Below, piece after piece: positions 21,477-52,156 of a DNA stretch of 64,000 nt; the first letter of the stretch is position 1, and each line of letters starts with the position of its first letter. The stretch spans positions 682,001 to 746,000 of the forward strand of contig CM022372.1 in assembly GCA_011800155.1 (NCBI GenBank). Reading direction: 5' to 3'. The position numbers and the translations under genes are program-made. The stretch comes from Flammulina velutipes (lineage: Eukaryota > Basidiomycota > Agaricomycetes > Agaricales > Physalacriaceae). The notes under the pieces are model-generated. The model saw only the letters and a program-made list of their open reading frames with translations, searched no databases and was not told the origin of the DNA.

Positions 21477-22816
21477 ATGTCCCCGATTTCCATCCTCTTT
21501 TTTGTCTTCCTTGGTATTTTTGTCAATGCTCGGTACGTCGTCCAGTACTTGCAGGTCTCCGCCAACTGACCATCTATATCCAGCCCTGTATACCCACACT
21601 CTGTGTTGGCTTCGACAAGATCCAACGCACCTGTAAACCGCAACATCAAGCCACCACTCAAAGTAAAAAAGGTCAAGCTCGGCAGAGGTGATAATAAGAA
21701 AGAGTATACCATGGTACCTATACCAGAGGTAGATCAAGGGGCATTTTCTTCGACGTACGAAGTTCTTGAAAGTGTCCATGGATTTGCAGCTATCGCGAAG
21801 GAGGTCAATGGCATAGATAATGCGACACGCGACAAAACAAACAAAGAGATGGACTATCTGAATCATGTACGTATATAAATTTGAACTCTGAGAGACCGTG
21901 ATTGACTATCTCCACGCCTAGCCTTATGTTGATTTATTTCTTTTCGCGTCAAAGCCGGCCAATGCTGACGGGATCTATATCATTCTGAAGAACGTTCGGA
22001 AATTTGACCCACCAATGATGCCCTTCCATGAATGGTACCTCGAAGACGAATCCATCCTGGCCGAGGAAGGCCTAACCATGCTGCGAAGTGCAATTACGAA
22101 GAGGTTATTTGAATTTTATGCCAAGCAACACAAGATACTGTGAGTCAACCCGAAACGTACTTAGGTCTCCCGTTGACCCCAAACAGGTACTACGACGTTC
22201 ACCTTCTCAATATATTCACTGTGGAATCACTCGACATGATCATTCCCGTAGACTGGGGTCCATCCACGTGGATTTATCCCAACGACGACAACCCTCCTTG
22301 GTTCGTGCGCGGTGTCGAAGACGTCAACTCTAACAACACGGATGCACATCTTCTCTACTTTGAAAAGGAACTAGATCGCCGGCTCTCAAAGAATTTCAAT
22401 GTCGCGACCTTGGATGTTTTGCTACGAAAGCGTGGCAAGCGGCTGAGGGCGTGAGTCTGAGATAAAGCATCATGGCGCATAGCTGATGATTCTCGTGATA
22501 GGGCTGATATAAGGATTGAAACGTTCTCAGGCAAGACTTTTGAGCTCGTACTCTCTCAAAAGGGAAATGAGACCTCAGTTTACAATATCGTAGGTGGTTA
22601 CGATGCAAAGATGGCTGTGATGGAGATCGGTCCGAAGGAATTGGGAGAACAGATTGTGCAGGAACTCACGGAGGTCTCAACGTCTTGACTTTCCAATTTT
22701 CGACGCCACACTGATATAAATGCTAGATCAAGGCGACATTGCTAGACAGCTTCACAAAGGAAGGAAACATTTACATTGTCTATACATTTGCTTCGTGGGA
22801 CCCTCCACAGGCTTAA
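21477..22816 (+). CDS. Secreted kinase-like protein A (one domain plus half N-lobe)
   Basis: Six exons. Exon 1 (21477-21532) encodes a hydrophobic leader, MSPISILFFVFLGIFVNA, and intron 1 follows directly. The body has a loop (VPIPEVDQGAFSSTYEV), the lysine motif AAIAKEV, EMDYLN, then PFHEWYLEDES, the catalytic-loop-like YYDVHLLN and IPVDWGP. A C-terminal helical part ends LRKRGKRLRA. A sixth-exon extension (FELVLSQKGN, YNIVGGYDAKMAVMEI, then NIYIVYTF) resembles the start of a second N-lobe in which the lysine is lost. No lesion seen. The residue pattern fits a kinase/APH fold; catalytic activity is not shown. No named family was recognised. Confidence 0.75.
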
Positions 22817-22995
22817 TACATAGCTTTGTCTCTCTTGGCACAGGATAAAAGCAAGCATAGCTCGTGTTAAGTATCAGCCACTGTACAGCCAGCAATCACA
22901 ATCACAGCACGACCGTTTCGACGGGAACTGCGTATCTGTCGGCTTAAGTACCTTGCTCTGACTCCCATCGATTTCGAAAACTCAATATTCTCCGG

Positions 22996-24334
22996 ATGTC
23001 GCGAATCAGTATCCTATTTCTGGCCTTACTTGGTGTATACAATGATGCACGGTACGTCAATGAGTACATGGAGGTTTTCGTAAATTAATCTTCATCACGT
23101 AGTCCTTTATACCCATATTCTACATCTCCTTTGATAAAGGATTGTAACCACTGTATGATTCGTGCCCTAGAGCCACTCCAATTCGAAAAGGTAACATTTT
23201 TCTTCGGTAACAAAGAGAAAGGGTACACCATAGTACCCTTCTCAAAGATAGACCAAGGAAGATTTTCTCGGAGTTATGATATTCTTGGTGGCTTTGACGG
23301 GCATGCAGCCATCTTGAAAAAAGATCGAACACCCAGAGCAGGTAGATACCAAGACACGCAAAGAGATTGGCTATCTGAAAAATGTGCGCCTTGTTCTCGA
23401 GGCAATGAATGCCATAACTCACCATTCTCTTCATAGCCCGTGGTTAATCTATTACTTCACACGAAGATTACCCGCGACGCTTTCTACCTCGTTATAAAAA
23501 ATCTCCGGAAAGATGACCCGCCGATGAAGCTCTTTTATGAGTGGTACATCGAGGACGAGTCTATGCATGCTGGCGGAGGACAGTCTGGCCATTTTTCGAG
23601 ATACCATTCGGGAAAGACTGTTGGGTTATTACGCCAAACAACATGGCATACTGTGAGTTCGCCCAATATTCAGGCCCGAGTCTGCCTATGATTTGAGATA
23701 GCTATCATGATGGTCATCTCATGAACATATTCGTCACAAAGTCACTCGACTCGGACAAGATCATGCCTATAGATTGGGGTCCACCCGAGCGGTTCTATCC
23801 CACAGACGGCCGGCGTCCATACACCATGCCCGGTGTCGAAGACGTCGATCCCACGCACAAAGAAGAGGACATCCTAGACTTTGAAAGCAAAATGGATCGC
23901 ATGCTTGGGATGGATTTCAATGTCGAGTCCCTTGATCGTGAACTAAGAGCGCGCAACCACTGGCAGCGACTAAGGCCGTGAGTCCCAGATGAAGTTTTAT
24001 CGTGCGACGCTGATGATTTCCTTAAAGCTGATATAAGAGTCGAGAAATTCTCTGGCAGGGAATACGAGCTCCTACTCGTTCAAAAGGGAAAGGAAATCTC
24101 AACTTACAGCCTCATCCACGGTTACCACCACACAAAGCCGGCGAGGATGAAAATTGTTACAAACTATTCAGAAGATCAAGTTCAGCAACTGATTTGGGAC
24201 ATGAAAAAGGTCTCCCCGTTTTAAGTCTCAAGAAAATGTAACGCTGATATATGATTCCTCAGGATGGTGCAAAGTTGCTGGACGACATTGAAAGGGCAGG
24301 CAATGTTTACTACTTTGTTTATACGTGGAGCTAG
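22996..24334 (+). pseudogene. Kinase-like paralogue B, with frameshifts
   Basis: Tandem copy of A with the same architecture. Exon 1 reads MSRISILFLALLGVYNDAR. Conserved parts are VPFSKIDQGRFSRSYDIL, AAILKK, FYEWYIEDES, YHDGHLMN and PIDWGP. Three lesions are seen: an extra A in the A6 run near 23315, after which the expected Lys-Ile-Glu frame is shifted; an extra G near 23573 before the expected Asp-Ser-Leu helix; and no usable AG in phase before the extension near 24027. The extension (YELLLVQKGK, NVYYFVYTW) is otherwise kept. It is probably a young pseudogene, unless the indels are sequencing errors. Confidence 0.7.
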
Positions 24335-24761
24335 AACATCTCAGCATCAAATTCATACGAGCTACTGCGTGCCACCATTGAGTCACTGACTCGAAGCAGC
24401 ATATTGACCGTGCTTGACGCCACTATGATTACTGTATTTGGCATTGTTTACCCTAGATTCTTTGTATCCGCCTACCACCAGCTTCGAATACATTACTTCG
24501 ACCACCTCGTCTCTCTTGACACAGCATAAAAGCAAAGATCGGTAGGGATCATGTTAATCATTCTCCGGCTTGAGGCCTAAGCAACGGAACGGGCGTCGCT
24601 TGGTGATCGCTCTACGCTAGTGGGTATGACATCCAATTACCGTTTGTTCACCTATTGGGTAACGATCCTTGCTAGGGTAACGAGTGACGATTACCATACA
24701 CCGGTGACCGCACAAAATCCTCAACGTAGTCGCCCATCTCCTCGAGCCGAACCCGTATCAG
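24335..24761. other. Spacer between kinase-like B and C
   Basis: Holds a TCTCTTGACACAGCATAAAA-type stretch near 24510-24530 that repeats one after A (near 22830-22850), evidence that A and B are tandem segment copies. Confidence 0.45.
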
Positions 24762-26843
24762 ATGTGTACCACCTATCACTACTTGGTCTTCTTCCTTGCA
24801 ACGCTACTCTGTAATGCACGGTCTGTACTCTAAGCCTTCGTCTTTGATAACTCGCAGCTAATATTGTACACAGACCCGTTAATCCTACCAATAACCTTTC
24901 GACGCGTTTCGTAGAAACTATCTTTTTCGACGGCTCTATACGCGCAGTCAAACAGCTTCCAGAATACGGCATATGGTCCACGACCTACAAGATCATCCAT
25001 GGCTTCCGCAATCAGCCAGCTATCTTAAAAGTCACCAACAAGAAGGGCGATCATAATGGCGTCGTACGGAAAGAAATTCAACATACGAAAACTGTGGGCC
25101 CTTATACTGATAAAAGTGAATCTTGGAACTAACGCGTGCAAAGGTAGGTCTATGGTTATACAACGAAATGATCGACAACCGGTATTACATTGCCTTGAAG
25201 GACGTTCGAGCAGGGATCAATGGAGGTCCTCCATTGGAACACTTCTCTGAATGGTACTTGAAAGGAATGTATACGGACCTAATAGAAGACTTGGACGAAC
25301 TCAGAAGAAACGTCGAATTGTCGCTTGTTCAGTTCGCCGTCGAGAAAAAACTACTGTGCGTCAGGATGGTTTACCAGTACCCTCCAGAAAGTTACTAACT
25401 CGCGAACAGTTACTACGATATCCAATTCCGAAACATATTCGTTGATGCCACTTTCACTTCTATCATGCCCGTTGACTGGCGCCCACAGGAAGGGCCTTAT
25501 AGCGTCGTAGAACTCGAAAGCGTATCCGAATCACGACTTCAGATGTTCCGTCGTGAACTGGCCATTATTCTCCCTAAGCGTCTCAACGTCAATCAGCTCG
25601 CTATCAATCTTGCAGCGCAAGGCAGACGGTTAGACCCGTGAGTCAGTTTCGTATATCACGATTGCCCATGACAGTGTCTGATGTCTTGGAGTTAGAGACG
25701 ACGAAATTCCGAGTAAAATTCTCGGTGAAGATGATGCTGAGTACGACATTCTACCGCTCATACATATGTACCAGGGCCGGTCTTCGGAGACATTTGAGAT
25801 TATCGGGGGCTACCTAGGTGCAGCTGCTATCTTGAACGTTATTGAAAGGCACAAAGACCGACAAGATCAAAGTATACGGGCCGAATTTGGCTACCTGAGA
25901 AAGGTATGTCCTGTCCCGAATGATACCGCATATCCAACACTGATTGTCACACCCTCAGGTTGGCTTAATTCTAGACAGCGAAATGAGCGAGGGGGATTTC
26001 AGCTTCGTGGTGAAAGATCTGCGAAGAGGAAATTTCCCAAACCGAGGAGATCCACCACTGAAACCATTTCACGAGCTGTATCTCGAGGATGAGAGGATGG
26101 CAGTCAAGGGAAATTTGATTAAATTCCGAAGAAGCGTAAAAACGAGGCTGGTCAAGTTTGCTCGGGATCATGGTCTGCTGTACGTTATTCGGTTTTACCA
26201 CGAAAGTAGCTCGCTGATGAAATGCAGTTATCTGGGATACGATTTCACGAACATATTCACTGACAAGGAGTTCAATATAGTCATGCCTGTAGACTGGGCA
26301 CCAGAAGGAGACGGCCAGTTGGGTGTGAGGAGAGTCAACCCACGGAGTGAGGAAATTGTGCAATACGAGAATGACTTGGACAAAGGTATTGGAATGATGT
26401 TCAACATCGGCAGGCTGGAGGCCGAGTTGAAACGACATGGCGAAATGCTACGACTGTAAGTTCAAGGTCGAGTAATCATGCACACCTCTAATATGTCTCT
26501 TCAGTTCGGATTCAGAGAGACGAGTCGAAACAATCGATGGCAAGAAATACGACCTCGTACCGGTGGGGGTGGAAAACCTCGGCGCAGCGTTTTGTGCCAC
26601 GTATAAGTTTGGCAACGGCTACCAAGGCCAGGACGCTATCTTGGAACTGATGAGGGATGTCGCAGGCCCGCCTGCCTTCGAGGATTTGATCTATGATGAA
26701 ATCGATCGTTTGAAGAAGGTGCGCGGCCTCTCTGAAAGAAGACACAAAGTTGATATATCTGTCAGAATGGAGAACACCTATACGACAACCGGGAGGGTCA
26801 ATATTGGTATATCATAGCCAAGGACACCCACCCAGAGGAGTAA
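24762..26843 (+). CDS. Secreted kinase-like protein C: two full domains and a third half domain
   Basis: The start at 24762 (MCTTYHYLVFFLATLLCNA) is a leader exon followed by an intron. Domain 1 has LPEYGIWSTTYKI, PAILKV, HFSEWYLKG, YYDIQFRN and MPVDWRP. Domain 2 (from about 25698) has MYQGRSSETFEI, AAILNV (Lys to Asn), PFHELYLEDE, YLGYDFTN (Asp to Gly) and MPVDWAP. Domain 3 (from about 26505) has YDLVPVG, DAILEL (Lys to Glu), EIDRLKK and QYWYIIAKD, and stops at the point where a C-lobe would begin. Eight or more introns repeat in the same places in each unit, so the domains arose by internal duplication. The frame is open throughout. Confidence 0.75.
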
Positions 26844-27134
26844 AATGCTCTACAGTCTACCCATCCTTATACCCAGTACTCGAGACAGCCAATCAAACTA
26901 TTGCAATTGCATCCTATAGCTACTACTCTACTTAAATACACGGCGTCGCTATCGAGAGCCTGAGAACATGTATGACAACGGAACGAGCCACGCAAGACGA
27001 GATCATTACGCGCCAGAGCGCAGTCAAGCGGGTCATGATTGCTTCAAAATCAATGTCCCGAGCCATCCAAGAGGCATCACCATGGGCTAAGGATGATGCC
27101 TCACACTAAATGGGTATGCTCGGTGGGAACCTCA

Positions 27135-29918
27135 CTATCTACCCTCAAGTCGATTCTTCAACGCAACCGGTACGAGCTCCGGCGGTAGCAACCCAAGTAC
27201 CTACATAAAAGTGAGTATGGAACCCGTCAAAAACAGATGTCCTCACTTTGCGCATGACATCCTCCCCGCCAACCTCCCATCCACTGTTGGCGACGGGTAA
27301 CATAACCGCGTCCACCAACCCAGTCATAGATTGCCCGATCCCAAACTTCTCCCCAGTAGCCTTCCGCCACCGCACCATATTCCGCAGCAACTTGACTCTC
27401 CTGTTAAGATACCTTCGACGGGCAGGTATCGCCTCGGGGTTGAACGACATCGCCGACTGATTGAGAAGTTGCTCCCGCTGTAGCTCGTCCGATTCAGAAA
27501 TTGCTTTCTTGAAGAGCTCGTGTATGGTCTTGTAAAGCATCTACCGAGGATGGCTTAGCAAGGCGAACAAGGAAGGTAGGAAGGAATGGACAAACCTGTA
27601 CTTTGACATTGCCTTGTTCGACGCTCGCTTCAACCTCCTCCCATAGATCTACTAGCCGCTTGATATGCGCTTCAGAGTATACATCAAGCGCTCCACCTTC
27701 CAAGACTTTGCATATCCTTGGGATGATGGCAGTCGTGATCATCGATGCTACGAGGTCACCGTCGGTTCCTAGCTCCTCGCCGTCAGGTCGCGAGTATTCG
27801 TACAAGCTCTTATACCACGAAAAAGTATCCAAACTTTTCGAAATCTAAAAACAACGATTAAAAATCGTGTTCACATAGAAGCAATTGGGAATTCTTACCT
27901 TAACACAATCCCAACCGACACATTCCAATCTCGCCCAGAACTCCCAGACACTGACAACACCGAGACCACCCCACGCACCAACATAACTATCCATGTACTT
28001 CTCGCGCCACGTGTTCCACATCCCTTTCGACGGATCCAGGAATTCCTTTGCTTTCACGTCAGACAGCACATCTTTTCTTCTCGTTTCAAGTGCCTCTAAC
28101 GCTTCGAGATAAGCATTCTCGTCCGGTGGCGGAAGCTCAGAGTCGGTCGAAAACCCTTCATCGGCATCTCGCTGAGATTTCCGAAGTTGTCGTCTGGCGA
28201 TACGTTCCATCCTCCTTTGTGCTTTGAGCTCCGGCTCGGTGGGCAAAGATCGGCCGTATTCGTCCTTCTCCTCTCGAGGTTGTAATGCGGGCGATGTTCC
28301 GAAGAAAAGAGATAGATCATCTTTATCGTCCTCAAACCGACGCTTCCGGACAATCTCATGGCGCTCTTGAAGTAACGAGATGAACTCATCTTCCAACTTC
28401 TCCAGAAGGGGGTACTGGTGTATGTTTTTGTAAATAGGACCCTCAATGGAGTGAAGGAGACATACCTTCTCGTCTAAGAAGCCCGCCACACCCTCTATCC
28501 AATCGTCAAATGAGCTGAACCATGCGCGTTTTTCTTCTGCTCTGACAACCATATCACGCATTTCTGTCTCCCGTCGGCCGACATCATCTCGTTCCACAGA
28601 CAAGGAGTTCATTGTAGATGTGTTCGTGGCATGAGAAGTGGTCAATTGGGACAATTGAAGAGCTAATCGATCAACAGCCGAGCTGAGGGTTGGAATATTT
28701 GTAGCAGCAGGAACTGAGAAAAAATGAGATGTGCAAAGATTGAGAGAAACTAAACGCACTTGGGGCAGCCTTGTAAACCTGTTTCGTTTGAGAGGTTTCT
28801 GATAGTAGCTTCGAATGTCCTCCCCGCCTCAACTGTTCGTTTTCCCATTCATCCGCTTCCTCGTCCTCCTCTTCTCTAAGACGGGGGTGAGAAGAAAGAC
28901 TTGAATCCAAAGAAGCTACTCACGCGTCAGCAATGAGCTCTACCATCGCGTCGCGTCGTTTCTTGGCTTCCACTTTGCGTGATTTCTTGCCCAGTGCTAT
29001 TCGTTCTTGAGCACTGGTGTATTCAGCATACTCTATGGATCGTTTAAACGATCGTGACGGCAAAATAAAAACGGCACTCACCATCGTCGCCTTCCCCCAT
29101 TTCGTCGTCTTCTCGCACCAGTCTACTTTCAGGATGCGGCCCTATGTTTTCCGTTTGTCTGGTCAAAGACAATGAGATGAAATCTGGCTCCCCATTCGAA
29201 GTAGAGGCTCTTGAACGTTCTCGGCGTTCCTTGGCTACTTTTATGGACGATTCGGACGGTATGAAGCTGGCTATGAAGTGAATCAGGATTAGGCGTCTAG
29301 GGTGGCATAAATTACACACTTGGGATCTCTTCGTCGTCTACAAGCGACATGGTAACATCACCCGCGTCCATTGACATATCCATTGACATGTCCGCATCGT
29401 ATGGATCGGAGGGCTCAGGAGGTGGCGCCTTCCTTGTGTTGGCCTTGAGTTCGTTGAGATGCGCCGCATCGTACGTTGGCCTATGGCTAGCTACTGACAA
29501 TGTCTCCAAATTCGGGAGGGCATCCCTACGTATAATAAGCAAGCTAAAACCAATGAGCAGAACTATGACAAACGTACTGAGAATGCTTACTGCTCTGGCC
29601 CAGCGTCAGTTTCTGACTTAGTCTTGATTTTTTGACCTGGAATACAGAATCAGTGCCCTCCTGAAGCCAGCCAAGTCAGTAAGCGTTCATAATGGCAGTT
29701 TGAAAGCCGACCTCGTCGTCTGCGCCGCCAAAGCTCAAGCGAGACTTTGGGCGTGATTTCTTTGCTCTGTCCTTGAGCTTTGTCGCGAGAGTGCTGGGTG
29801 AATCGTCGGCCGTCGCTGTCATTGATGCATCGGTTGCAGTCCCGCCACCGTCGTCGTCGTCGTCGCCGAGACGTTGTGAACGATTGGCAGGCTTTGATTT
29901 TACGCGCTTGGTGAACAT
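27135..29918 (-). CDS. GCFC-domain protein (PAXBP1/GCF homologue)
   Basis: Nuclear protein related to GC-rich sequence binding factor, a family tied to spliceosome function and transcription. The start at 29918 (MFTKRVKSKPANRSQRLGD) opens a disordered acidic N-terminus. SRPTYDAAHLNELKANTRKA matches the short conserved box before the coiled coil. A helical middle (EERRETEM, EKRAWFSSFDDWIEGVAGFLDEK) is followed by the GCFC domain with MWNTWREKYMDSYVGAWGGL, FWARLECVGWDC and SLDTFSWYKSLYEY. The C-terminus reads RRRYLNRRVKLLRNMVRW and ends LLPPELVPVALKNRLEGR. About nine exons. It is divergent with the gene at 30015, with under 100 bases between starts, so a shared promoter is likely. Confidence 0.85.
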
Positions 29919-30014
29919 GGAGGGAGGAAGTGTGACGCGAGGTGATCTGTCACCAAACGCACGTGGCAGGGCAGCAAAAGCGCGAAATTCCCACGGTCAG
30001 CAACCCAAATCAAG

Positions 30015-31615
30015 ATGTCACAAGCGCGCCCGCGTCCCAGGCCAAGACCCGTCGCAAAGACCAAGAATGCAGCGAGCTCGTCGTCGACGACCGCCACTGT
30101 CGTCGACAGCGACGAGATGTTCCTTCGAAATACATCGCGCAACCTCGAGACATACAAGGCCATGTTCGAGATGAACAAGGGTGGGTGGCAGTCAATATCA
30201 TCAAGTTACAAGTCTGAATATACGTAGTGGAACGCAAGGTTCGCCATAGATCTGCCGACGAGGACGATGCACCAGACACCCCGAAGAGAAAGAACAAGAA
30301 GCAGACCAAATCGGCTCCAAGCTGGCAGAAGGGCAAGAGTACAGAGTGCGTGTTGCTCCTGTTATCATCGTCCTACCCTGACAGAAAGTAGTGTCTTTGC
30401 CATCGACATATCATCATCAGACGACGACGACGACGAGCTGAGCATCGTTGACGGCAAGGAGAATTCACCCTCCAAGAAGCGGAAACGCAAAGAACGACAA
30501 CGAAGTCGCTCAATAACACCACCTCCTGCCATATCTCAACACCAGCTCCAGAACGCGCGCAACGTCGTTCGGTGCGTATCTTTGTCGGCGTCCATACCAC
30601 TGCTAATGGCAACCGCAGACAAGCGCTTGCACGACCCGCGCGTGCGCCTTCACCGTCACAATACGACGACTTCAACGATGTCTCGACAGACACGATAATT
30701 TTGGATCCAGAGCTGGAGCGAATAGCGAAACAGTCCAAAGCCGACTTCAGAGGCTCCTCTGTTCCACCAGAAGCATTGAGCGACGAGATGGTCGAAATCA
30801 CTGTCAAGTGGACACCACATCCGCTGAACGATCTAGGGAAAATATCAAGCAGCGTGTACAAGATGCATCAAGTACGCATTTCCCTTGGTTACTCTCAACA
30901 GTATTGACCTCTTTCAGACTGAGAGCTTCAGCGAACTCTTCGAGGCTGTAGCCGACGAACAGTCCATTCCAGTTGACTGTCTTATTATGACCTACAAGAA
31001 CCTCCGCTTTTTTAAATCCGTATCACCCAAGACCCTCGGTATCTGGGGATCTGCAGAATTTTGTACGCCGTTCCATACTGAACCCTTTTGCTTGCTTGCT
31101 GACCACCTCATCCAACAGTGGCATGCAATAAAGCAACTTACGACTACATGCGCGCACAGTCTCTCCTTCCCAAACAGAAAGTCATGCCCGAGACGGAGGA
31201 CGACACTGTCCTAATCTTGTCCGACGACGAAGACGTATCCCACGTCCACAAAAACTCCCGAGTGTCTCCTACCCCCCAACCCGAGGATGACGGGCCCGAC
31301 GACAAATTCAAACTCACCTTCAAGTCTGTATTAACACAAGGAGAGATCGTTTTGACTGTACGACCAACGACGACGTGTGGCGCAATTGTCAAGGCCTTCT
31401 TGAAAAAGGCAGGGCTCGCCGACAAGTACCCCAATGTTATGAGCGGAGTTCCACCGGCGCCGGCACCCAAGAAGAAGGGCAGGGTGGCGAAAGCCGCCGC
31501 TATCGAACTGAAGGATCCGAAACTATGCGTGGACGGCGACAAGTTGGGCAGTGATACGGAGATTGGCGATATGGACCTTGAGGACGGTGACATGGTCGAG
31601 GTTGTTGGTTTGTGA
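30015..31615 (+). CDS. Rad60/NFATC2IP-type SUMO-like domain protein
   Basis: Nuclear genome-stability protein family with two C-terminal SUMO-like domains (Rad60, Esc2, NIP45). The start at 30015 (MSQARPRPRPRPVAKTKN) is followed by a long disordered region with basic and acidic tracts (SSSDDDDDELSIVD, PSKKRKRKERQR). SUMO-like domain 1 is MVEITVKWTPHPLNDLGKIS to MTYKNLRFFKSVSPKTLGIW. Domain 2 is FKLTFKSVLTQGEIVLTV to DMDLEDGDMVEVVGL, ending at the stop. Between them are acidic SIM-like runs (VLILSDDED). Six exons or so. A Lys-rich insertion (KKKGRVAKA) sits inside domain 2. Confidence 0.8.
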
Positions 31616-31809
31616 TATGGATTTATACTTCGCGGGGCGCTTTCTTCTCTCAATTTCTATAATGCTTCATCGGTATGTCGTTGGTTTGCTTCGTCGGCAG
31701 CTCGGTTTCTTACTAGCAACTGTGTAGTCGTACTAGGAAATTTAACATCTTATTGAACTACACTGTTGATACCCTTCTGAACGATATCATGGGTACGTGT
31801 TTGTGCTGT

Positions 31810-32062
31810 TCATTGACTAACCGCTTCTTCCGAAGCTAGTGCAGCGTCTGCCCTAAACAAGGCAAAAATTCAGTGATATGACTGGGTATAGAAGAACTTG
31901 AACTGACGGCCTCGATTGCTTACCACTTCTTGCTAGCACCATTGCCAACTCCTTGATAGTAAATGTCTTCGGGATATTTTCTTGCCGGTGAGTCCCAAAA
32001 GCATGCAATTGATCTTCAATGGTTTCGTCCAAGCCTTTTTCAACACCGGCTGTAATTGGGCG
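31810..32062 (-). pseudogene. Kinase-like family relic I (C-terminal exons only)
   Basis: The minus strand reads AGVEKGLDETIEDQLHAFG and IPKTFTIKELAMVLARSGKQ, then RP, a GT..AG intron (about 31853-31908) and ADAALASEEAVSQ to a stop at 31810. This is the C-terminal helical segment and last exon of the kinase-like family (compare GVEEVLERTKDRQ and PKRINVGELAKILAKRGKQ in G; PADAAALAKDQ in F). The N-lobe, catalytic loop and signal exon are not found upstream. The splice signals survive, so the loss is a 5' truncation. Confidence 0.75.
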
Positions 32063-32414
32063 CGATCCCGACAACCTCTAAATGTGCGGAGATATCGGAC
32101 GGATGCTCACGCCACTCTTATTTCCTCCCGCGCACGATACACTGGCGGCATTTGGCGCTGAGCTGACCGCTTGGAACGGGGAGTCGCATCGAAAGATGCG
32201 AGTTGGTGGTGTTCCGTGTACTCATCATCACTCTGTCACTGGTTGTTTCTACTGGTTACTCACTGGCACTTGCCGTCCCTTGTCCTTCTTGTGTCTTTAG
32301 GTGAAGCATATTCAAATCTGAAAAGCTCGAGCTTTCATGAACGGTCTTCATTTTCGAGCTACCGGTGATACTATAAGCTAACGAACTCAGAAATTTGGCT
32401 CTCCGACCAACACC
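32063..32414. other. Spacer between kinase-like relic I and gene D
   Basis: About 350 bases where the missing 5' part of the relic should lie. No family motif found in any frame. Confidence 0.4.
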
Positions 32415-33418
32415 TTAGCCTCGGCCAGTGACCAAGGCTGCGTCGCTCCTAATGAAAATGAACGCTCAGAAATATGCCTTACAGAAGAACTTGGGACTCA
32501 CGGTCTTAACTTGTGGCCTCGTTTTTCTAGTTGATTCGCTAGATTATCGATATTGATTCTCTCGGGGATATATTCTTGCAGGTATTCGGTAAACTCGGCG
32601 AGTTGAATTTCCTTGGTTCCACTGAGGACTTTCTCAACACCCGCAAAGCCATTTTCTGGCGGACTCCAGTCTACAGGCATGGGAAATCGGAATGTTCGAT
32701 CAACGAATACGTTGCTAAGACTGAAGTCATGATAACTTTGGGAATCGGTCTGAGTGAGAATCAACAAGAACTATGAACTATGCTGACTCACAGTAACTTA
32801 TCCATGAGTGCGGTCTTGGTGAGATCAGTTTTAATGCTTTTCCTAAAATCTGCTAGAGCCTTCTGAACATCCATCGTCTCGTCAGCCAGGTACCACTCAT
32901 AGAACGGCAAGAACATATTGTCTGCTCGGACGTTTTTGATAACAACAAAATACGCATCCAAATCTAGAACCTGTTCAAAGTCCAACAAAAGCCCCATCTG
33001 TACTGCTTATCAGCTCGCCCGTCAAAAGCTAAACGCCGGCGCCAACCAACCTGCTTCAAATATGTTGCTTCTAAAGCTGTCTTGTCTCCGTCTACGGGGA
33101 CGACTTTCAATATAGCGTAATGGCCCATGAACTTCCCTTCGATTTCGTAGGTATCCGACCAGATGCCCTGGTCAGCCTCAGGAAGGGGCGTGAGATTGTA
33201 TTCTCTACGATCGGGCCCATCAGGACCGAGGATAGTTGATTTCAGTTTGCGAGTGATCTTCGCTCGACTGGAAAGAGCCGTGGAAGGAGGACTGTGTAAA
33301 AATTCAGACAGGTATTCACCGAAGAAAATTGAGTAGTGATCGAAACATACCGAGCGTCACTGAGTAAGGCTCCCTGGAAGACAAAAAGGGCGAGGGCGAG
33401 GATGGAGAAGGAGAACAT
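32415..33418 (-). CDS. Secreted kinase-like protein D
   Basis: The start at 33418 reads MFSFSILALALFVFQGALLSDA (leader exon), followed by an intron. The mature part has the family run YNLTPLPEADQGIWSDTYEI, then YAILKVVPVDGD and ATYLKQ, a helical region with PFYEWYLADETMD, the loop YHDFSLSN and PMPVDWSPP. The C-terminal helix reads GVEKVLSGTKEIQLAEFTEYL then RINIDNLANQLEKRGHKLRP, with a last exon SDAALVTGRG. About 265 residues. The frame is open across all exons. The 15-base box GAGCTGGCCTCAAAC lies at 33422-33436, directly before the ATG. A relic of the same family lies just downstream. Confidence 0.78.
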
Positions 33419-33421
33419 TGA

Positions 33422-33819: not shown

Positions 33820-35669
33820 CTACAATAGATATCTGAACCCAGCCTCTTGCTGCTCCTTGGTGGGAGCGCTCTTCTTCTCATCGATTCCCCTATCAAGCAG
33901 ACTATTCTGCCTCGTAAGGTATATCCTCGTAGCCGTCGCACATACGATCGCCATCACACTCGCCGCCAGATTCACGCTAAACGCTGTGAGGTAGCGTGGT
34001 GATGAAGTGTAGAGGTACGCCGTCCAGATGTTGGGCGTGTTGCACATAGCGTTGATCAGCGATATCGCAGCGGCGCGCTTGACTGCAGGCTGTGTGAGTG
34101 ATCCGGTTATCCACGAGAGAGTAACGACGGCAGAGCCATAGAAGGAGGAAGGCATGAACATCATTGCGACATCTGAGCGGGCAGGTGTTAGAACGGTAAT
34201 GGAAGAAGGAAATGGGAGTCTCACATCGTCCTGCAGTGTTGAGTGTGGCGACGGCTATGACATTCGCGATGACGGTAAAGGTCAACGGCCCAACGATATG
34301 CCAGAAACGCTCTTGAGTCTTGTCGGAGTGCCAACCGTTCACGATCATGACGACGACGCAGAGCAGGTAAGGTGGGGCGGTGAGGACATAGGTGATGTTC
34401 CGGCTAAGCAACGCATTTCTGGTTAGCACAGCAAATCGAAACATGTAGAATAAACTACTCGCCTGTAACCAAGGGTGCCTACAACAGACGGGAAGAACTG
34501 CACGACGGCGGCGGCGATGTATGTCTAAGAGCCATGGTCAACAGTCTACTCGAAAGCAAAGAAGACGAGAACAGACCATATAGAGAAGACTCATGAGCAA
34601 CCAAGTCTTGGGATCCGTCACAGCCATCACGAACGCCTCCCAACCACCAATCTCATCCCTGTCGTCCTTCTGGCCTTGGTCCTTCTCAAAGTTCCACGCC
34701 AAAAAGTCCTTCTCCGTGTCGGTCAAACCCCACGCAGTAGCCAAACTGTTGGGAAGATACATGCCAAAGACAATGGCGAGGAAAACCGTGACGACACCCT
34801 CAATGATGAAGAGCCACCTCCAGCCCGTGATACCCTTCAGCCCGTCCATTTCAAGAATCGCAATGGCAAGGAGACCACCAAATGCGTTCCCGAGCTGCGA
34901 ACCAGAGTAAAGAAGCGCTGTGCGAAGCGCGAATTGCTGACGGTTGTAGAACATGGAGAGATAATGAAGGGCACCACTGTGATAACGGGTAAGTCGAAAG
35001 GTCGAAGAAGACGGTCTAGAACATAATGAACGTACGGGAAGAAGACAGCCTCAACGAAGCCTAGGAAGAAGCGACAGGTGACAAGTCCAGCGAAGTTGTG
35101 AGTAGCGCCCGCAGCGGCAGAGATGACTCCCCATACTGCCATAGCAGCGCAGACTGCGCACAATAGGTTAATTCTCTTCGGCGAGTGGATTGAAAGACAA
35201 AAACGCGTACTGTAGTAGGCCGGGTGAGCTATCTTTCCGATAATGATAGTCGAAGGAACCTGCATCAGGATCTAAATAAAATGATGCGTGTTAGTGGGGT
35301 ATGGAGGCGGGGAAGAGGCCACCGTACATATCCCAGAAAGAGAAGACTGATGCATGTTTGATACTGCACAGGAGTGAGGTTAAGTTCCGCTTCGATGTTC
35401 GCGAGTTTGGCAGAGGAAATGTTCTGGCGATCGAGGTAGTTCATGACACTAGAGAAAGTCAGCGAAAACGCGGAAGAAGGGTCTAAGGTAGACACGTACT
35501 ACATGACGATTATAGCGGGCATAATCAACATGTCAATTTTGAACGTCGCTTTCTTTCCAAGGCGCGCGTAGTCCTCTGTTGATAACCCGGCGAGCGACGC
35601 GGGCATTGTGTGAGCTGGGCGCTTGGTCTCGATGTGGATCTCGTCATTGACAGACTTGGTATCAGACAT
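33820..35669 (-). CDS. MFS transporter, DAL5/anion:cation symporter type
   Basis: Plasma-membrane uptake carrier of the fungal allantoate permease family; substrates are organic anions such as allantoate or nicotinate-like acids. The start at 35669 (MSDTKSVNDEIHIETKRP) is preferred to an in-frame Met at 35711. Helix 1 contains MLIMPAIIVM, then YVMNYLDRQNISSAKLANIE, the typical TM1-TM2 loop. Later come GLVTCRFFLGFVEAVFFP, GWRWLFIIEGVVTVFLAI and GLTDTEKDFLAWNFEKD. The C-terminal half includes NITYVLTAPPYLLCVVVMIVNGW and ANVIAVATLN. About ten exons. The substrate cannot be told from sequence. Confidence 0.87.
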
Positions 35670-40199: not shown

Positions 40200-41217
40200 T
40201 TAGGCATTTGCTTTTCGGAGTTTCGCCAAAGTTGCAGCATCTCGCCTAATCAGAACAAAGAGTCAGTGTAGTAGAGGGAATGCAGGTACTAGGACTTACG
40301 GTCTTAATTCCTTGCCGCGTATTTTCAGCGCCTCCTCCAGTTGTTCAATGTTTATTCTCCTCGGGAGATATTTAATCAGGTATTTGGCAAACTCGTCTAA
40401 TTGATCTTCGCTCGTCTCGTCCATGACTTCTTCTACACCTGCAATTCTGCCACCGTCCTCTAAATCTTTGTCTGTTGGCCCCAGTCTACAGGTATGGATG
40501 CCGTAAGTGTCTCGTCAACGAACACATTTTTCAGGTCGAAGTCGAAATAGCTAAGTGGCATCAGTGAGCATGAAAAACAGACTGCGGAAGACTGACATAC
40601 AGCAGCTTTCTGTTGATTGCTATGTTGACCAAGACACTCTCAATAATTCCTAGTACTTGCTTCAAGGATTTTTCCAGATCCATATCCTCGTCCTCGAGGT
40701 ACCATTTGTAGAATGGCTTAAATGGCGCCGCCGGCCTTCTTTCCACGTCAATGCTTACTATGAAGAATACCCCTCTCATTGGCTCAGCTTCATCGTGTAA
40801 GTGTAGGTTAACCTGGTTCAATTAACATCAGCAGTCAAGTTTAGTTTTCGCGTAGGAAAATGACCTTCTTCAAGTAGCGGACTTCTATTTCCGTTTTACT
40901 ATTGTCTTCCGGGACAACTTTTAATATCGCAGGCTCGCCCTCAAACGGCTCGACAATCTTGTATGTGTCGGACCAGCGGCCTTGATCAACGTCGGGAAGG
41001 GGAACAAGTGTGTACTCCTTGCCGTTGAGAACTTGAGATTTCAATCGTTCGGTGTGTATTACTCGACTGGAGAGCGATGTAGAAGAAGTAGGACTGTGCA
41101 ATGAGTGGTTAGCTATGAAATATGCTGCGCGATGTGTATAACGCACTGTGCGGTACTGAATAACACCCCCTGGATGAGAAGGATCACAACCAAGAAGATT
41201 TGGGAATGTGTAAGCAT
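40200..41217 (-). pseudogene. Kinase-like paralogue E with a frameshift after the VDW motif
   Basis: The start at 41217 (MLTHSQIFLVVILLIQGVLFSTA) is a leader exon followed by an intron. The body has VPLPDVDQGRWSDTYKI, PAILKVV, IEVRYLKK, PFYKWYLEDED, YFDFDLKN and IPVDW. At about 40480 one base is missing relative to F and G (GGGGCCAACAG against GGGGTCCAACAG), so the frame reads GQQTKI and stops. In the other frame the C-terminal part is intact (GVEEVMDETSEDQLDEFAKYL, RRINIEQLEEALKIRGKELRP) and ends with ADAATLAK-like residues at 40200. The lesion removes about 70 residues after the kinase motifs. A sequencing error is the alternative. Confidence 0.72.
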
Positions 41218-42391: not shown

Positions 42392-43431
42392 TCATATATA
42401 CGTGGCATGAATATCTTTGATCTGCTTCCATTGGTGTCCCTTCCACAGAGCATTCCCACTCGTCGATCTCTTGGATACCACACCCTCCGACGCGTCTGCA
42501 TCTTCCAGGAGATACCCAGCTCTGACGCCACCCTTGTCTGCCAGCTCTTGTAAGAAACGGACAAACGGCTGGTCTATCTCCTCAGGCGACACGTAGGTGA
42601 TCGTCTTACCAAGTATCTGCGCAACCTCCTGGAACGTAGCGGCTTCTCCCTCAACAATGAAGCTCTTGTTGTAGAGCTCAGAGAGCGGGATGGTGGTAAG
42701 GATGTGCGCAACGTAACCTGGGTAAGACTTAGTGTCTATGCGAGATGGCAGTGGGGAGAATCTACGACGTACCTCCGATGTCTGCGAGCGCTGTGAAGCT
42801 CACTTTCTTGTCGCCTTTTCCTGCAACGACGAATTCACCGGGCTTGCTGGTGGCGGAAGTAAGCCAGGGAACGAGCTCAGTGAACACCCCAGTCACCACC
42901 CTAGTAGTGGGAATGCCAATCTCCTGGATCTTGGCTGTCGACACGTTCAATAGTATTAGCTCAAGCATTTCCAAAAAAAGTGAGATACCTAATGCCGCAC
43001 TCTTCGCTCCAAAGAGGCTCCCAGAAGCATGACCTTCCGCGTTCAAACCGAACTCAGCGGGTACGAAGAGTTTCACACCTGCTGCCTTGGCGGCGCGAGC
43101 GATGGCTACTTGGACAACGGCGATGACATTTTCAGTATCAGTACCACCGCCAAGGGTAACGACCACCACATCAACCGCATTCTCCTTGAGGACATTGACC
43201 ACCTGCGCCTCATTGGTGTAGTCGACGGAAGCAGTCTTAACCGCGGCGGGAACATCTTGGAGCTTGGATGCGTCTCTGGATAAGAGAAGGACTTTAGCGC
43301 CTTGTGCGGCGAGGGCCTGGACGAGCGACAAACATTAGCGGGAATAAGGGGATACATTGTTCGGTACTTACGCTCACGAGAGGCTTTCCAAGTGTTCCGT
43401 AGCCAAAGACTGCGACTGATATAGAAGACAT
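42392..43431 (-). CDS. NmrA/isoflavone-reductase-like NAD(P)-binding protein
   Basis: Rossmann-fold oxidoreductase or redox sensor of the atypical SDR family. The start at 43431 (MSSISVAVFGYGTLGKPLVS) carries the GxGxxGxP nucleotide motif. Next come KVLLLSRDASKL, VDVVVVTLGG, LFVPAEFGLNAEG, the family PAEFG motif, and KIQEIGIPTTRVVTGVFTE. The C-terminal part has FIVEGEAATFQEVAQILGKT and VSPEEIDQPFVRFLQ. Four exons; an intron at about 42940-42988 separates LGAKSAAL from AKIQEIG. About 300 residues, as expected. Cytosolic; substrate unknown. Confidence 0.85.
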
Positions 43432-45832: not shown

Positions 45833-47142
45833 AGGACAGAAAGACAGCAAGGAAAAAAAGAGTGAAAGGTAGAGAGAATGGATGCCTCGCAAAGGCTGAC
45901 GACCAGACGACGACGAGGGGAGAAGGAGAAGAAGGGTTTGTCACAGTCACATCACAGAATCCATATGATCATCAAATTGGGAAGAATCGTTCCGCCACCG
46001 CGTCCTATCATCCATCACGACCAGCGCTGCGTCGGGCTCGCTGGCGGCTACTGAAGCTACATCAATCTCGCATCTAGTACTGCCCCAGGATGGCCCCAAC
46101 ACTTGGATAAATCTCATAAAGATTCAAGTGCTACGTCCCCTTGGCACTCCACCAAACTTCTGCTCGAACAATCTTAACTGTTGTCATGGCGCCAGTAACG
46201 GATTTGCGCCACACTCAAAATAATCAGCTTTTCAGGTTCACTCTGACACGGCTCTATCGTGCAAGGGCGCGATGACCGAAATAGATCAAGGATCAGCGCT
46301 CAGCGCTCAGCGACAGTGATCTCCTCTGACTTCACTTCGCGATATTCGACACCGTAAGTAATATTAACAGGATCAGGTCGCAAGTCTCCGTGTGCACTGG
46401 GAGCAGATAGTTGGGCGTGCGTCGTTATAACACCTCGTCACTGCCTTTGTCAACAAGCAACTATCATAGTATTACCTATACTCACTAATGGCCGGCATTA
46501 TGGAATCACCACTGCTCTGCCAAGGACAGGTATTTACCGCTTAGTACTCGTACCCTTGTCTTTCTATGTAACACCTTCAAACTTGATTCCGACTCTATCC
46601 TGCAACTCCATGGTCCATCTTCAATCACCCCCACCTGAAAGTTCAACGTTTGACGATTAACCTCGATACCTGATCACAACACTGCCTCGTGACTGGCAAG
46701 TGTAGTGGCGTGGCGTGGCGATGATGTGGGATAACGACTACTAGTAGGATGGGAGTACATTTTCATGATTCGCGGATGAACAGACTACTGATGCGCCAAA
46801 CAAAGACACAGGGCCGTTCATTGCTTAGCGCTTAGCAGCAGTAATGTCATTGATCATGAAACAGGCAGGTTATCTCACTGCGCCACATGGGCACATGATC
46901 CAAGAAAGAGAATGTGTATGTAACGCCGTGCATAGCCGCCCATCGTACCAATAATGACCGTAATAAATAATATGGACGACTGGCGCAAGTCATCGTTAAG
47001 CCGTTGAAATGCCCACGTGTGGTGGATAGCTTGGTTGTCACACCATCCTGATCGGAGAGAATGCAATGAGACCTACTGACGTTAAATAAAGTACAGACTC
47101 ACAGGTCTATAACATCATCTTTCTGAGCTGGCCTCAAACGGG
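45833..47142. other. Intergenic, 1.3 kb
   Basis: Two TGCGCCACA copies at 46205 and 46879, a short GCGCTCAGCGCTCAGCG direct repeat near 46300 and a GTGGCGTGGCGTGGCG run near 46705. The pre-ATG box of F lies at 47125-47139. No gene. Confidence 0.4.
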
Positions 47143-48172
47143 ATGCTTTCCAACTCCCGGTTCTGCCTGGTGGCGCTCCTCCTCGTCCAAGGGGCTTTAC
47201 TCAGTAACGCGCAGTACGTTAAACACGTCACGCTACATATCTGACAGCTAACTACTCAAAGTGCAGTCCAACTGCTTCTACATCACTTTCTACTCGAGCA
47301 AAGTTCACCGAGCTCTTGGAATCTCAATACCTCGGGGAAGGGGATAACCGTAAAGAATACACCCTCAATTTCCTTCCAGAAATTGATCAAGGCAGCTGGT
47401 CCGATACATATCAGATTGTCGAGCCGTTCATGCCATTGGGAGAGCCAGCGATATTGAAGGTTGTCCGAGAAGACGATGGAAAGACGGCAGTAGAAGTCCG
47501 TTACTTGACGAGGGTGAGCATTTTCCCACGCGAACGTTGGGCTTGACGGCTGATATGTGTTGGACCAGGCTAGGCTATTCTTGCACGGGGAAGCTGAGCC
47601 AATGAGTGGATTATTTTTCATGGTATCCATCGATGTAACAAGACGCGATCCGCCATTCAAGCCGTTTTACAAATGGTATCTTGAGAACGAGAATATGGAT
47701 TTAGAGGCGTCAATGGAACTAGTGCGGACAACTATGGAGACTTGCTTAGTCGGAATAGCGCTCTATTTAGATCTACTGTACGTCAGTCCCGCTCAGTCTG
47801 GATTCATGCTCAATAACACTGACCCCAACTAGCTATTTCGACTTTAGCCTGAGAAATGTGTTCTTGAACAAGTCATTTACCAGGTGTAAACCTGTAGACT
47901 GGGGTCCAACAGAGAAAGGTATTGATGGTGTAGAAGAAGTTTTCGAAGACACCAAGGAAGATCAGCGAGACGAGTTCGGCGCATACCTGCAAGAAAAACT
48001 CCGGCCGAGAATTAGCATCACGGTATTGGCGAAGATACTAGAAAATCGTGGGGAGAAACTACGGCCGTGAGTACTTATCCAAACATGCCCTCTACCTCAC
48101 TGACTGTTTGTTCCGATTAGGGCAGACGCTGCAGCATTAGCGAAGGACCAAAAGGCATTGGGGATCACGTAA
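47143..48172 (+). CDS. Secreted kinase-like protein F
   Basis: The start at 47143 (MLSNSRFCLVALLLVQGALLSNA) is the leader exon, followed by an intron in the shared place (Ala-His/Arg then Pro). Motifs: LPEIDQGSWSDTYQI, PAILKVVRED, VEVRYLTR, ARLFLHGEAEPMSGLFF, PFYKWYLENENMD, YFDFSLRN and KPVDWGP. The C-terminal helix reads GVEEVFEDTKEDQRDEFGAYL and RISITVLAKILENRGEKLRP; the last exon is ADAAALAKDQKALGIT. Five exons, about 280 residues, frame open. Upstream box and downstream box are both present. The neighbour G arose by segment duplication that includes the 3' flank. Confidence 0.8.
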
Positions 48173-49269
48173 ACGTGCTACCACGTAACATGACAATTAC
48201 GGTGATGAATATACATACATGCAATCAGATATATACTATGCAAATCAGGTAGCGTGTCTGATCAAACGAACGTGACCGTGAAGAGGCACCGCCACCGATC
48301 ATTTTATCTCTACTCTGAGTAGTGGTAGTACTCAGAGTTCCCATCGCAACAACGTTGACTTGTGCTCATCGCACCCGGCCATCCAGAAGACTGCATCAGG
48401 CACAGTAACACACACATTCACCTATAGTAGTCGTCTACCCCTATCGGGCAGGATATTCATCTGTAATGCGGTTGGACGCAATCTTGCGAAGATGTCGCAA
48501 GCGCAAGCGCGGAATGCCTTACATACTGGATGCTCGAGTTCGAAGACCATTACCGTTAACGTCCAAATACTCATTTCTTAGCCTGAAGATTCGTTTACGC
48601 ATCCATGGCCAGATGGAAACGCCACATGGCCGCATACTATACAGTGCTATAAACAAGGTGTGGGACAATGCTCCATCTGAAAGACTGTCAATGATATGAC
48701 TGTGTAGATATCTTGATTCTACAGTTGCCTTCACAGAGGAGGCCACCCAAACTTGTCAAACTGGAAAACCATTTTTGAGTGTCTTCTCAATAGCAATGAC
48801 ACTGGTTTCTATGTGCATCTATCGACAATCCGACAGCCGTTTCCTTTCCGCCTCCACCATAGCTGTGCATGCGATCAACGATCGCTATGATCTTACTGAA
48901 TATCTCCAAGTATACGTTACCTCGGCTTGGTCACAGCAGTCGTTTGGTGAGTGGTTGACGGTGTGGCGGCACGATCATATCTGAGAGTATGTGAGTACTT
49001 ACATCTTTCCAGAATGATCTACCAGTGCCCGGGCAGCCGCCGTACAGCGCATTGCATGGCAGCCAACCGTACTAGTAATCCCGGTATTAGTATTTCTCGA
49101 ACAATCAGAGCGCTAATAACCGTCTATGTATCCTAATATCGACGGTGTTGGTATCACCGGTTGGCGTATCATCCAAATACGAGAAACACATCCAACAAGA
49201 GCTGAAGTTTAAATAACGGACAAGTTCGAAGATTATGAACATCATCGTCCCGAGCTGGCCTCAAACGGA
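48173..49269. repeat. Downstream segment duplicated between F and G
   Basis: About 48269-48880 matches 50372-50900 with many substitutions and small indels: the 3' box, then AAGACCATTACCGTTAACGTC against AAAACCATTACCTTTCACC, then a shared CCAGA[TC]GGAA...GCCAC stretch, then TTCACAGAGGAGGCCACC against TTCACTGAGGAAACCGCC. No open reading frame is conserved between the two, so this is either noncoding or a decayed gene. The duplicated unit is therefore gene plus about 600 bases. Confidence 0.6.
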
Positions 49270-50304
49270 ATGCTTTCCAATACCCACTTCTGCCTGGTAG
49301 TGCTCCTCTTCATCCAGGGGGCATTACTCAGTACCGCGCAGTACGTTCTACATGTCGTACATCATATTCAGCAGCTAACTATTCCCTATACAGTCCAACT
49401 GCTTCTACATCGCTTTCCGGTCGAGCAAAATTAACAGAGCTCTTGGAATCTCAAATGCTCGGCCCAGAAGGGCCTGACCGCAAAGAATACACTCTTGACC
49501 CCCTTCCGGAGGCTGATCAAGGTAGTTGGTCCGACACATACAGGATTGTTGAACCGTTCATGGGAAATCCTGCGATATTGAAAGTTGTCCGAGAAGACGA
49601 TGGCAAGACAGATATAGAAATCCGCTATTTGAAGAGTGTGAGCATTTTCCTACACGAACACTAAACTTGGGCGCTCATACGAATTGAACCAGGTTAAACT
49701 GTACTTACACGCTGAAGCTGAGCCAATGAACAGAGTATACTTCATAGTATGTGTTGACGTGGAGAGACGAGAGGCGGCGCCATTCAGGCCGTTGTACAAA
49801 TGGTACCTCGAGGACGAGAACATGGATTTACGTGAGACCTTGATCCGAGCAGATGCAGTTATTGAGCATGTCTTGGGCTCCATAGCAGACAACAAAAAGC
49901 TACTGTATGTCACGATCCGTCTTGCGCACCCTGTGTTTATGCTTACTGACTGCGACTACTAGCTATTTCGACTTTGATCTAAAGAATTTCTTCTTTGATA
50001 AGACAATCACTTACGGTATACCTGTCGACTGGGGACCACCAGAAGGCAATATTGCAGGTGTAGAAGAAGTCCTTGAAAGAACCAAGGACCGCCAGCGAGC
50101 TGTGTTCGACCGTTATCTAGATACCCATCTCCCAAAGAGAATCAATGTCGGGGAATTGGCAAAGATATTGGCTAAGCGCGGCAAGCAATTGAGAGAGTGA
50201 GTCCCAGTCCTTCTCACCCCTATAGAGATCACTGAGCGTTCATTTTGATTAGAGAGGATAAACCACTTTTGCAGAAGTTCTTGGCGAAATCTAGGCGTAA
50301 TTAA
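49270..50304 (+). CDS. Secreted kinase-like protein G
   Basis: The start at 49270 (MLSNTHFCLVVLLFIQGALLSTA) is a leader exon. Body: LDPLPEADQGSWSDTYRI, PAILKVVREDDGK, IEIRYLKS, YLHAEAEPMNRVYF, PLYKWYLEDENMD, YFDFDLKN, IPVDWGPPEG. C-terminal: GVEEVLERTKDRQRAVF and PKRINVGELAKILAKRGKQ, with a last exon EDKPLLQKFLAKSRRN. Five exons, about 285 residues, no break. G is the closest relative of F, and the full family signature is intact here. The upstream box is at 49252-49266 and the 3' box at 50372-50417. G and H share the last-exon type (EDxPxLxKFLA), against PADAA- in F, so C-tails have been swapped or have diverged. Confidence 0.8.
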
Positions 50305-51116
50305 ATACGCAGACGTATTACCAAGTATGCATCTGCAATACTATACAAGATGCGTGATACATTCACAGAAGGAACGTGACCGTGAAGAGGAATAGCACCG
50401 CCACTCGATCATTTTATTTCCTCCCACCATCATCGCAGCAACGTTAACTTGTGCTCTTCGTAAGTACCAGGCCATCCAGATGACCGAGTATAGGGCAGGA
50501 ACATTGACATTTACCAGTCCTTTCCACGCCGTATCGGGTTGCCTTCATCTCAGGCTACCAGACGCAATCCTGCAGTAATACTGCGAAGCGCAACATTCCG
50601 CACCCCAAAAACCATTACCTTTCACCTCTTAGCCCGGGAATCCATTGGCAATACTTGGCGTCCAATCACCACCAGACGGAACGCCACTCGTCATATGCAA
50701 CCCCAGAAACCAAAGGTGAGTTGACGTCCCAGCCGAGAGACTTACAATGATGAAGCTTGCAATACACCTTCACTGAGGAAACCGCCTGAATTCGTCAGAA
50801 AGCCCGGGAAACCATGTTTCATTGCGTTCTCAAAACGACAATGTTTCCATGCACCTATCGCCAATGCAACAACTGTTTCTGCATCGCCTCAAACAATCCC
50901 TGTCATTGCTGTGCGTACGGCCGTTGGCGAGAGTCAGTAGTCGTGAGTGACCATCATGAGGGTATCGTCACACTGCCACAACCAGCGGTAGTTTTCAGCA
51001 CTGCTCGTAGTGATCACTTCATGCGGATGATGCACCTATGGTGGGAAAGTCAAAGAGGTTCAAATAGACCATCTCCTGATATCATCATTGATCGTCGTCT
51101 CGAGCTGGCCTCGCGG
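50305..51116. other. Intergenic between G and H
   Basis: Carries the 3' box of G, the second copy of the F/G downstream duplicate (to about 50900) and the truncated pre-ATG box of H at 51102. No gene. Confidence 0.5.
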
Positions 51117-52156
51117 ATGTTCTCCAAATCTCAAGCCGTCTTACTGCTGCTGCTCCTTTTCCAAGGGGCATTATTATGTAGCTCACGGTACGTTCTGCAC
51201 GCTGTAGTATGAATTCGGCGACTGACTGCTCATTAGTCCTACTACTCCAACGTCACTTTCCATTCGCACGCACCCAGATTATTTCGAGTCTCTAACTCTC
51301 GGACCGGAAGGGCCTCACCGTAAAGAGTATCATCTTACTCCCCTTCCAGACGCTGTGCAGGGCTCCTGGTCCGATACGTACCATATCAAGGAGACATTTA
51401 TGGGCAGGTCTGCCGTACTGAAAATTGTCGGATTCAAAGGACACGAAGCCAAGAACAAGGAAGAGGTGGAAAATCTAAAGACGGTGGGCATCTTTTTCCT
51501 ACGTGAATTCTGACACTGATATATATTGAATCAGATGAACCTGTACCTGCACCATGAATATGGGCCGAAAAAGAGACTATTCATCATCATCTCCAAAGAT
51601 GTCGAAAGAGAAGAAACTCCATATAAACCTCTGCACAAGTGGTATATCGAAGGCAAATTGTCTTTGGGTCTAGAAGACACCCTCGACTTAGTCCGAACAA
51701 CCATCGAGGATATGTTGGTCAGAATAGCACTTGAGCACAACCTATTGTATGTCAACATCGCACAGTCTCGGTTCATGTTCACTGACTACGAACAGGTATT
51801 TCGACTTTGGTCTTAATAATTGTTTCCTTACCGAGACACTCAAAGGGGGGATGCCTGTGGATTGGGGTCCGCCGGAGCGGGATGATAATGGCGAACTTAT
51901 TGCAGGCGTAGAAAGAGTCTTGGATGAAACCTTCGACGACCAACGAGATGCGTTCGCCGACTACATCCGAGAACATATCCCAAAGAGAATCAATGTCGAA
52001 GAGTTGGCGAAGGCACTGAAAAAGCATGGCATGCAATTGAGGGAGTGAGTCCCAGTCCTTCTCAACCCTATAGATCACTGAGTGTTCGCTTTGATTAGGG
52101 AAGATGTACCAGTTTTGGAGAAGTTTTTGGCGTCGAAACCCACCCAGACACAGTAA
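51117..52156 (+). CDS. Secreted kinase-like protein H
   Basis: The start at 51117 (MFSKSQAVLLLLLLFQGALLCSS) is a strong leader. Motifs: YHLTPLPDAVQGSWSDTYHI, SAVLKIVGFKG, EEVENLKT, YLHHEYGPKKRLFI, PLHKWYIEGKLSLG, YFDFGLNN and MPVDWGPPERDD. C-terminal: GVERVLDETFDDQRDAFADYI and PKRINVEELAKALKKHGMQLRE, with a last exon EDVPVLEKFLASKPTQTQ. Five exons. The Gln-Gly of the loop is kept, but Asp-Gln-Gly becomes Ala-Val-Gln-Gly. The frame is open. H is the most diverged of the three tandem genes in its N-lobe. Confidence 0.78.

Follow-up and report, generated by a model that had tools for sequence, protein, structure and literature searches.

A 64-kb stretch of the Flammulina velutipes genome (contig C5, 682001-746000; hereafter the window, in which positions are counted from the first nucleotide) contains a set of related genes that appear to encode secreted kinase-like proteins. 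The genome is intron-rich and comprises 38.1 Mb in 23 contigs. An initial annotation of this DNA had described eight such genes and one relic; all nine were recovered, although only six of the genes (A, C, D, F, G and H) are intact, B and E being frameshifted. Gene A (21477-22816, forward strand) gives a spliced model of 360 amino acids in which a leader exon (21477-21532) precedes a full domain in three exons (21584-21866, 21922-22139 and 22187-22450), followed by a C-terminal half domain corresponding to an N-lobe (22502-22673 and 22727-22816). The full domain keeps all five residues expected of a kinase-like active site (Lys, Glu, catalytic Asp, Asn and DFG-type Asp) and has a DxHxxN loop. 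Gene B (22996-24334, forward), the ends of which were set by eye, shares this layout of leader, domain and half domain and is interrupted by two frameshifts, near 23317 and 23572, being either broken or misread. Gene C (24762-26843, forward; nine exons, 555 amino acids) consists of a leader, a first domain with the five residues kept, a second domain that has lost the catalytic Lys and Asp, and an N-lobe half domain. The extra half domain, which ends after the N-lobe, is C-terminal in A and C according to the models and in B by eye.

The relic lies on the reverse strand (31916-32050) beside gene D. It retains 45 codons from the C-terminal exon of a domain and scores 102 against the family profile, compared with 22-38 for 20 unrelated 900-nt stretches, which bears out its initial description. 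Gene D itself (32415-33418, reverse; 260 amino acids) has five exons that encode a leader and a single domain in which all five residues are present. This organization is shared by genes F (47143-48172, 270 amino acids), G (49270-50304, 270 amino acids) and H (51117-52156, 278 amino acids), all on the forward strand. Gene E (40200-41217, reverse; low end set by eye) also comprises a leader and one domain, and carries a single frameshift near 40480, just past the VDW motif; it too is broken or misread. The frameshifts in B and E could reflect real decay or errors of assembly or sequencing. In the six spliced models the introns are GT-AG, 47-59 nt long, and located at conserved positions.

To define the shared features, we aligned 42 domains, seven from the window and 35 from elsewhere in the genome; the counts below refer to the domains with a letter at the site concerned. 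The motifs occur in the order QGxxS, a lysine within AILK, an alpha-C Glu, a YxD(x4)N loop, which mostly reads YxDFHLxN, and an [IV]DW[GA]P metal site. Another highly conserved stretch, PPLKPFHEWYLED, is placed after the hinge. Conservation of the lysine (39/40) and glutamate (40/40) is nearly complete, and the catalytic Asp (34/41), the Asn (37/41) and the DFG-type Asp (38/41) are retained in most domains. All five residues are kept, in order, in 30 of the 39 complete domains. The common motif set that had been proposed for these genes is thus present far above chance.

The family is dispersed genome-wide. Searching the genome with G and C gave more than 200 exon-level rows, from which 114 rows at E<=1e-3 were grouped into 74 exon clusters, seven in the window and 67 outside it on eight contigs. 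This is a lower bound on the number of places and not a gene count, as the searches scored best candidates only; rows that overlapped or adjoined others were in part left out of the 114. Using a home-made spliced profile alignment, with a threshold of 90 against 22-38 for 20 background stretches, we modelled 35 further distinct domains outside the window (59 raw hits before removal of repeats). These came from 38 overlapping loci, which cover part of the family only. Frameshifts and stops are absent from 32 of the 35, and both introns are located at profile positions 65-69 and 135 in 32, the others being cut or half domains. An additional N-lobe-only half domain adjoins locus L052. At one further site (C9:348166-349077, forward), two parts of query G are joined in a single open frame of 410 codons, which may represent an intron-poor or retrotransposed copy.

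A hydrophobic exon 1 encoding a leader only is found in all eight window genes (six from models, B and E by eye). Outside the window, leaders were counted for 26 first domains; the other nine of the 35 domains comprise six second domains, a half domain and two that the locus truncates. A home-made score of hydrophobicity and splicing, used in place of SignalP, placed a leader exon ahead of 22 of these 26, with no candidate for L023, L025, L046 and L047. These leaders score 1.8-3.7, whereas 175 shuffles of upstream sequence put the control's 99th percentile at 1.5, and 21 of the 22 end at a phase-2 intron. By hand count, 25 of 30 leader exons have Ala as their final complete residue; the exon boundary coincides with the likely signal-cleavage site. 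Pro occupies position 1 or 2 after the leader in 25 of the 27 sequences entered, or in 25 of 30 if L036, L038 and L068, which lack it by eye, are counted. Within 24 residues after the leader, [LIV]SxR occurs in 15 of 27 sequences, compared with an average of 1.0 and at most 5 after shuffling, a comparison in which the paralogues are not independent; this stretch is perhaps a propeptide cleavage site. These observations support the leader-only first exon and the secretion initially proposed, and we consider it very likely that family members are secreted.

We next compared the family with known folds. All 46 PDB rows matched by a profile built from 26 sequences are protein kinases (CK2, RAF and PLK2 among them), the best E value of 0.0057 being statistically marginal. 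In the three alignments printed, the family and the kinases are in register from the glycine loop through DWG, with the Lys, the Glu and the catalytic loop matched. A seven-sequence profile gave 14 PDB matches, all kinases (E 0.098-0.66), and all 17 matches of a ten-sequence subset were kinases; the same ten sequences, when reversed, gave no PDB match at E<=10. A profile-profile comparison with 14 FunK1 fragments from the same genome scored 23.3, compared with 10.9-18.9 for controls. Taken together, the exclusive and in-register recovery of protein kinases, with an empty reversed control, supports a kinase/APH-like reading of these genes, and there is a high probability that the domain adopts a kinase-like fold.

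When 26 members were scanned singly, none reached the cut-off of a Pfam model. With matches admitted up to E<=1, neither the eukaryotic protein kinase model (PF00069), nor FunK1/Pkinase_fungal (PF17667), nor the Fam20C model was listed for any member. ABC1 matched two members below threshold (18.4 bits, cut-off 22.9), over the region of the model that holds the catalytic loop. NCBIfam listed 11 families, all with weak scores; four of them (UbiB, MphB, MTRK and a defence kinase) are kinase-like, and seven are unlike kinases. Moreover, the window has no place among the listed genome matches to Pkinase, FunK1 or APH, consistent with the proposal that the genes belong to no named family. All three of these families are abundant in this genome, with 144 matches for Pkinase, 116 at exon level for FunK1 and 76 for APH.

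Seven genes join two domains in frame: gene C, L020, L024, L032 and L050 on contig C7, and L029 and L047 on contig C8; the join in L020 required a weak donor. In every case one domain has all five residues and the other is missing one or more. Degenerate domains account for seven of the 14 domains in these genes but only two of the 25 others (Fisher p 0.005, with relatives treated as independent). In L020, L024, L032 and L050 (C7, 2.07-2.09 Mb), the first domain has NxN for YxD and has lost the catalytic Asp, with the frame open; in gene C the order of complete and degenerate domains is reversed. On a phylogenetic tree, the four degenerate C7 domains form one clade (100/100) and those of L029 and L047 another (100/96), whereas the second domain of gene C is unresolved. 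The domains of the pairs are therefore not independent. To account for all nine degenerate domains, the tree requires a minimum of three or four changes; two of these changes belong to L048 and L036, which are not two-domain genes. The complete domains of the C7 genes and those of the C8 genes belong to two different clades. The pairs may share one to three origins; a reading of about three independent origins was rejected, as the tree does not show it. For the same reason we lowered our estimate that the degenerate domain regulates the complete one beside it, an idea drawn by analogy with known pseudokinases that we hold to be somewhat doubtful.

Searches of a database of 5.8 billion proteins gave no match at E<=0.001 in one run and only two environmental fragments, P0001 and P0002, in another. 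P0001 is nearly identical to the paralogue L056 of this same genome, with an intron stretch retained, and P0002 is nearly identical to the N-lobe of L056 (both by eye). The absence of other relatives carries weight because the database holds mushroom-class proteomes (Mycena, Pisolithus, Hypsizygus, Leucogyrophana, Athelia and Armillaria). It was not accepted as proof of novelty, since the search, which relies on shared words of 5 residues, was not exhaustive. To our knowledge, few fungal families of secreted kinases are known. Among the matches listed in open PMC papers (subscription journals and preprints fall outside this scope), no fungal family of like description was found, and a term search did not find the word "secreted" in a 2025 review of fungal kinases (PMC12394161). 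The family is thus real, unnamed by the libraries searched, and lineage-restricted as far as these searches show. What is new here is that seven genes of this family each unite a complete domain with a degenerate one, in the manner of pseudokinase-kinase pairs.

The explanation that we favour, and regard as reasonably probable on the available sequence evidence, is that these genes form an expanded family, restricted to one lineage, whose members are secreted phosphotransferases built on a shortened version of the protein-kinase-like fold. Sequence supports the kinship to kinases and the secretion, and from these we infer fold, activity and role. The leader exon would route the protein into the secretory pathway. 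The domain would bind ATP-Mg and phosphorylate proteins, glycans or small molecules, either within the secretory lumen, extracellularly or inside a partner cell. In the two-domain genes, the degenerate domain would regulate the adjoining complete one, as Fam20A does for Fam20C and ROP5 for ROP18. Judging from the retained residues, some members are probably active as kinases.

Several observations weigh against this explanation. The C-lobe past DWG is much shorter than that of ordinary kinases, Tyr replaces the catalytic His in 35 of 41 domains, the glycine loop is reduced to one Gly (the remnant QGxxS), and a catalytic residue is missing from nine of the 39 complete domains. Single-member Pfam matches are all below threshold, and the lowest E value (0.00048, one member) is to the unrelated MCR_D, at 20.4 bits against a cut-off of 25. 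The hhalign probability is just 5.8% for APH and 2.6% for FunK1. Partial models of the C-lobe have a mean predicted local distance difference test (pLDDT) score of 61 and 74, and their best Foldseek E values, 0.81 and 3.9, are not significant; these weak fold matches are mostly to kinases, NleH chains among them. The specificity of the leader test is incomplete: of six second domains, which have no need of a leader, three scored 1.66-2.24 because the end of the domain before them was taken for one, so that the two lowest-scoring leaders, those of L033 and L030, are less certain. Domains that have degenerated strongly may have escaped detection, and the pairing of complete and degenerate domains would then be distorted. 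Finally, ATP is scarce outside cells.

The last point would be met if the proteins were an effector arsenal, that is, kinases secreted to act within plant, animal or rival fungal cells, where ATP is plentiful, and expanded by an arms race in the manner of the Toxoplasma rhoptry kinases. The secretion leaders, the xP and [LIV]SxR stretch behind most of them, the frame-broken members and the at least 74 exon clusters, many of them near one another, are consistent with such a role. Evidence from substitution rates points largely the other way. The nonsynonymous rate (dN) is below the synonymous rate (dS) in 27 of the 29 close pairs listed, a pattern that also speaks for the favoured phosphotransferase explanation. 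Bootstrapping backs dN < dS in six of nine pairs tested, degenerate domains included, and significant dN>dS was found in none. The degenerate C7 domains have dN/dS of 0.32-0.55 over six pairs, and the two pairs bootstrapped both gave dN < dS. In favour of an arsenal, the triple L030, L031 and L033 (C5 1.44 Mb and C12 1.16 Mb) has dN about equal to dS, with ratios of 0.80, 1.11 and 1.30. Diversifying selection on this triple was rejected, given bootstrap fractions for dN>dS of 0.18, 0.70 and 0.89 and a frameshift in L031. Overall, we consider an effector arsenal to be unlikely.

Slightly less likely still is that the proteins are APH-type kinases of small molecules or sugars, at work in the secretory lumen or outside the cell. 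A second His in the loop, as in APH (DxHxxN), is present in 26 of 41 domains, but is absent from D, F, G, H and the first domain of C. Five of 26 members match APH in the catalytic-loop part of the model (best E 0.0025), but the best score of 18.0 bits is below the cut-off of 23.2; MphB and MTRK are each matched by one member, also below threshold. A profile-profile comparison with seven APH proteins of the same genome scored 26.6, compared with 9.9-14.1 for six controls, with catalytic loop aligned on catalytic loop. Against this, the PDB matches of the family profile are all protein kinases, and none of the listed APH places of this genome is inside the window. A family devoted to binding or scaffolding, with the fold kept and catalysis seldom or never performed, would account for the degenerate domains, the reduced C-lobe and the half domains confined to an N-lobe (those of genes A, B and C and the one next to L052), but is improbable given five intact catalytic residues in 30 of 39 domains and one domain remaining complete in all seven two-domain genes.

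Returning to secreted phosphotransferases with a shortened kinase-like fold, the closest known systems serve as analogies, and no membership is claimed. Published accounts describe the Toxoplasma ROPK family as expanded and secreted, with the pseudokinase ROP5 required for the activity of ROP18 (PMC3493473, PMC3682881). On that description, ROPK resembles the present family in being expanded, lineage-specific and secreted, with complete and degenerate members mixed. It differs in being protozoan (a sequence link was neither tested nor claimed), and the family here fuses complete and degenerate domains in one gene. A fungal counterpart of the rhoptry kinome, in which dozens of minimal kinases, a regulatory pseudokinase being fused to some of them, would be secreted and aimed at a partner or rival organism, is a speculative extension to which we give little credence. 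The pseudokinase Fam20A is reported to activate Fam20C in the secretory pathway (PMC5865150), a likeness to a secreted kinase with a pseudokinase partner; Fam20 has been studied in animals and, unlike it, the family here gives no listed match to the Fam20C model. HopBF1, characterized as a minimal kinase effector (PMC11997596), and NleH are similarly small kinase folds exported to act elsewhere, but both are bacterial and no sequence link ties the family to them.

Among further comparisons, FunK1 (PF17667) is likewise an expanded fungal kinase-like family, but has an HRDIS-type loop. APH (PF01636) shares the DxHxxN loop and IDW site with most members, whereas the family has YxD for HxD, a leader and no member at the Pfam cut-off. 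CK2 and RAF give the best in-register profile matches, and CK2 has the same DWG site; the family differs from both in having YxD for HRD, no conserved APE motif following DWG in the aligned domains, and a shorter C-lobe. If the favoured explanation is correct, the family would provide a new system for studying kinase work outside the cytosol and the origin of pseudokinases beside active partners, and would perhaps show a fungus manipulating its surroundings through phosphorylation.

Directly downstream of gene H, at window positions 52348-52893 on the forward strand, is a DUF7330 gene (PF24016, E 2.9e-21). The other genes beside and between the family members are ordinary ones, encoding a pyridine nucleotide oxidoreductase (20353-20916), NTR2 (27845-28828), a Rad60-SLD protein (31103-31612), an MFS transporter (34541-35050) and an NmrA protein (42765-43331). 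The nine organism-named relatives of this NmrA protein are all mushroom-class proteins, with 35-43% identity.

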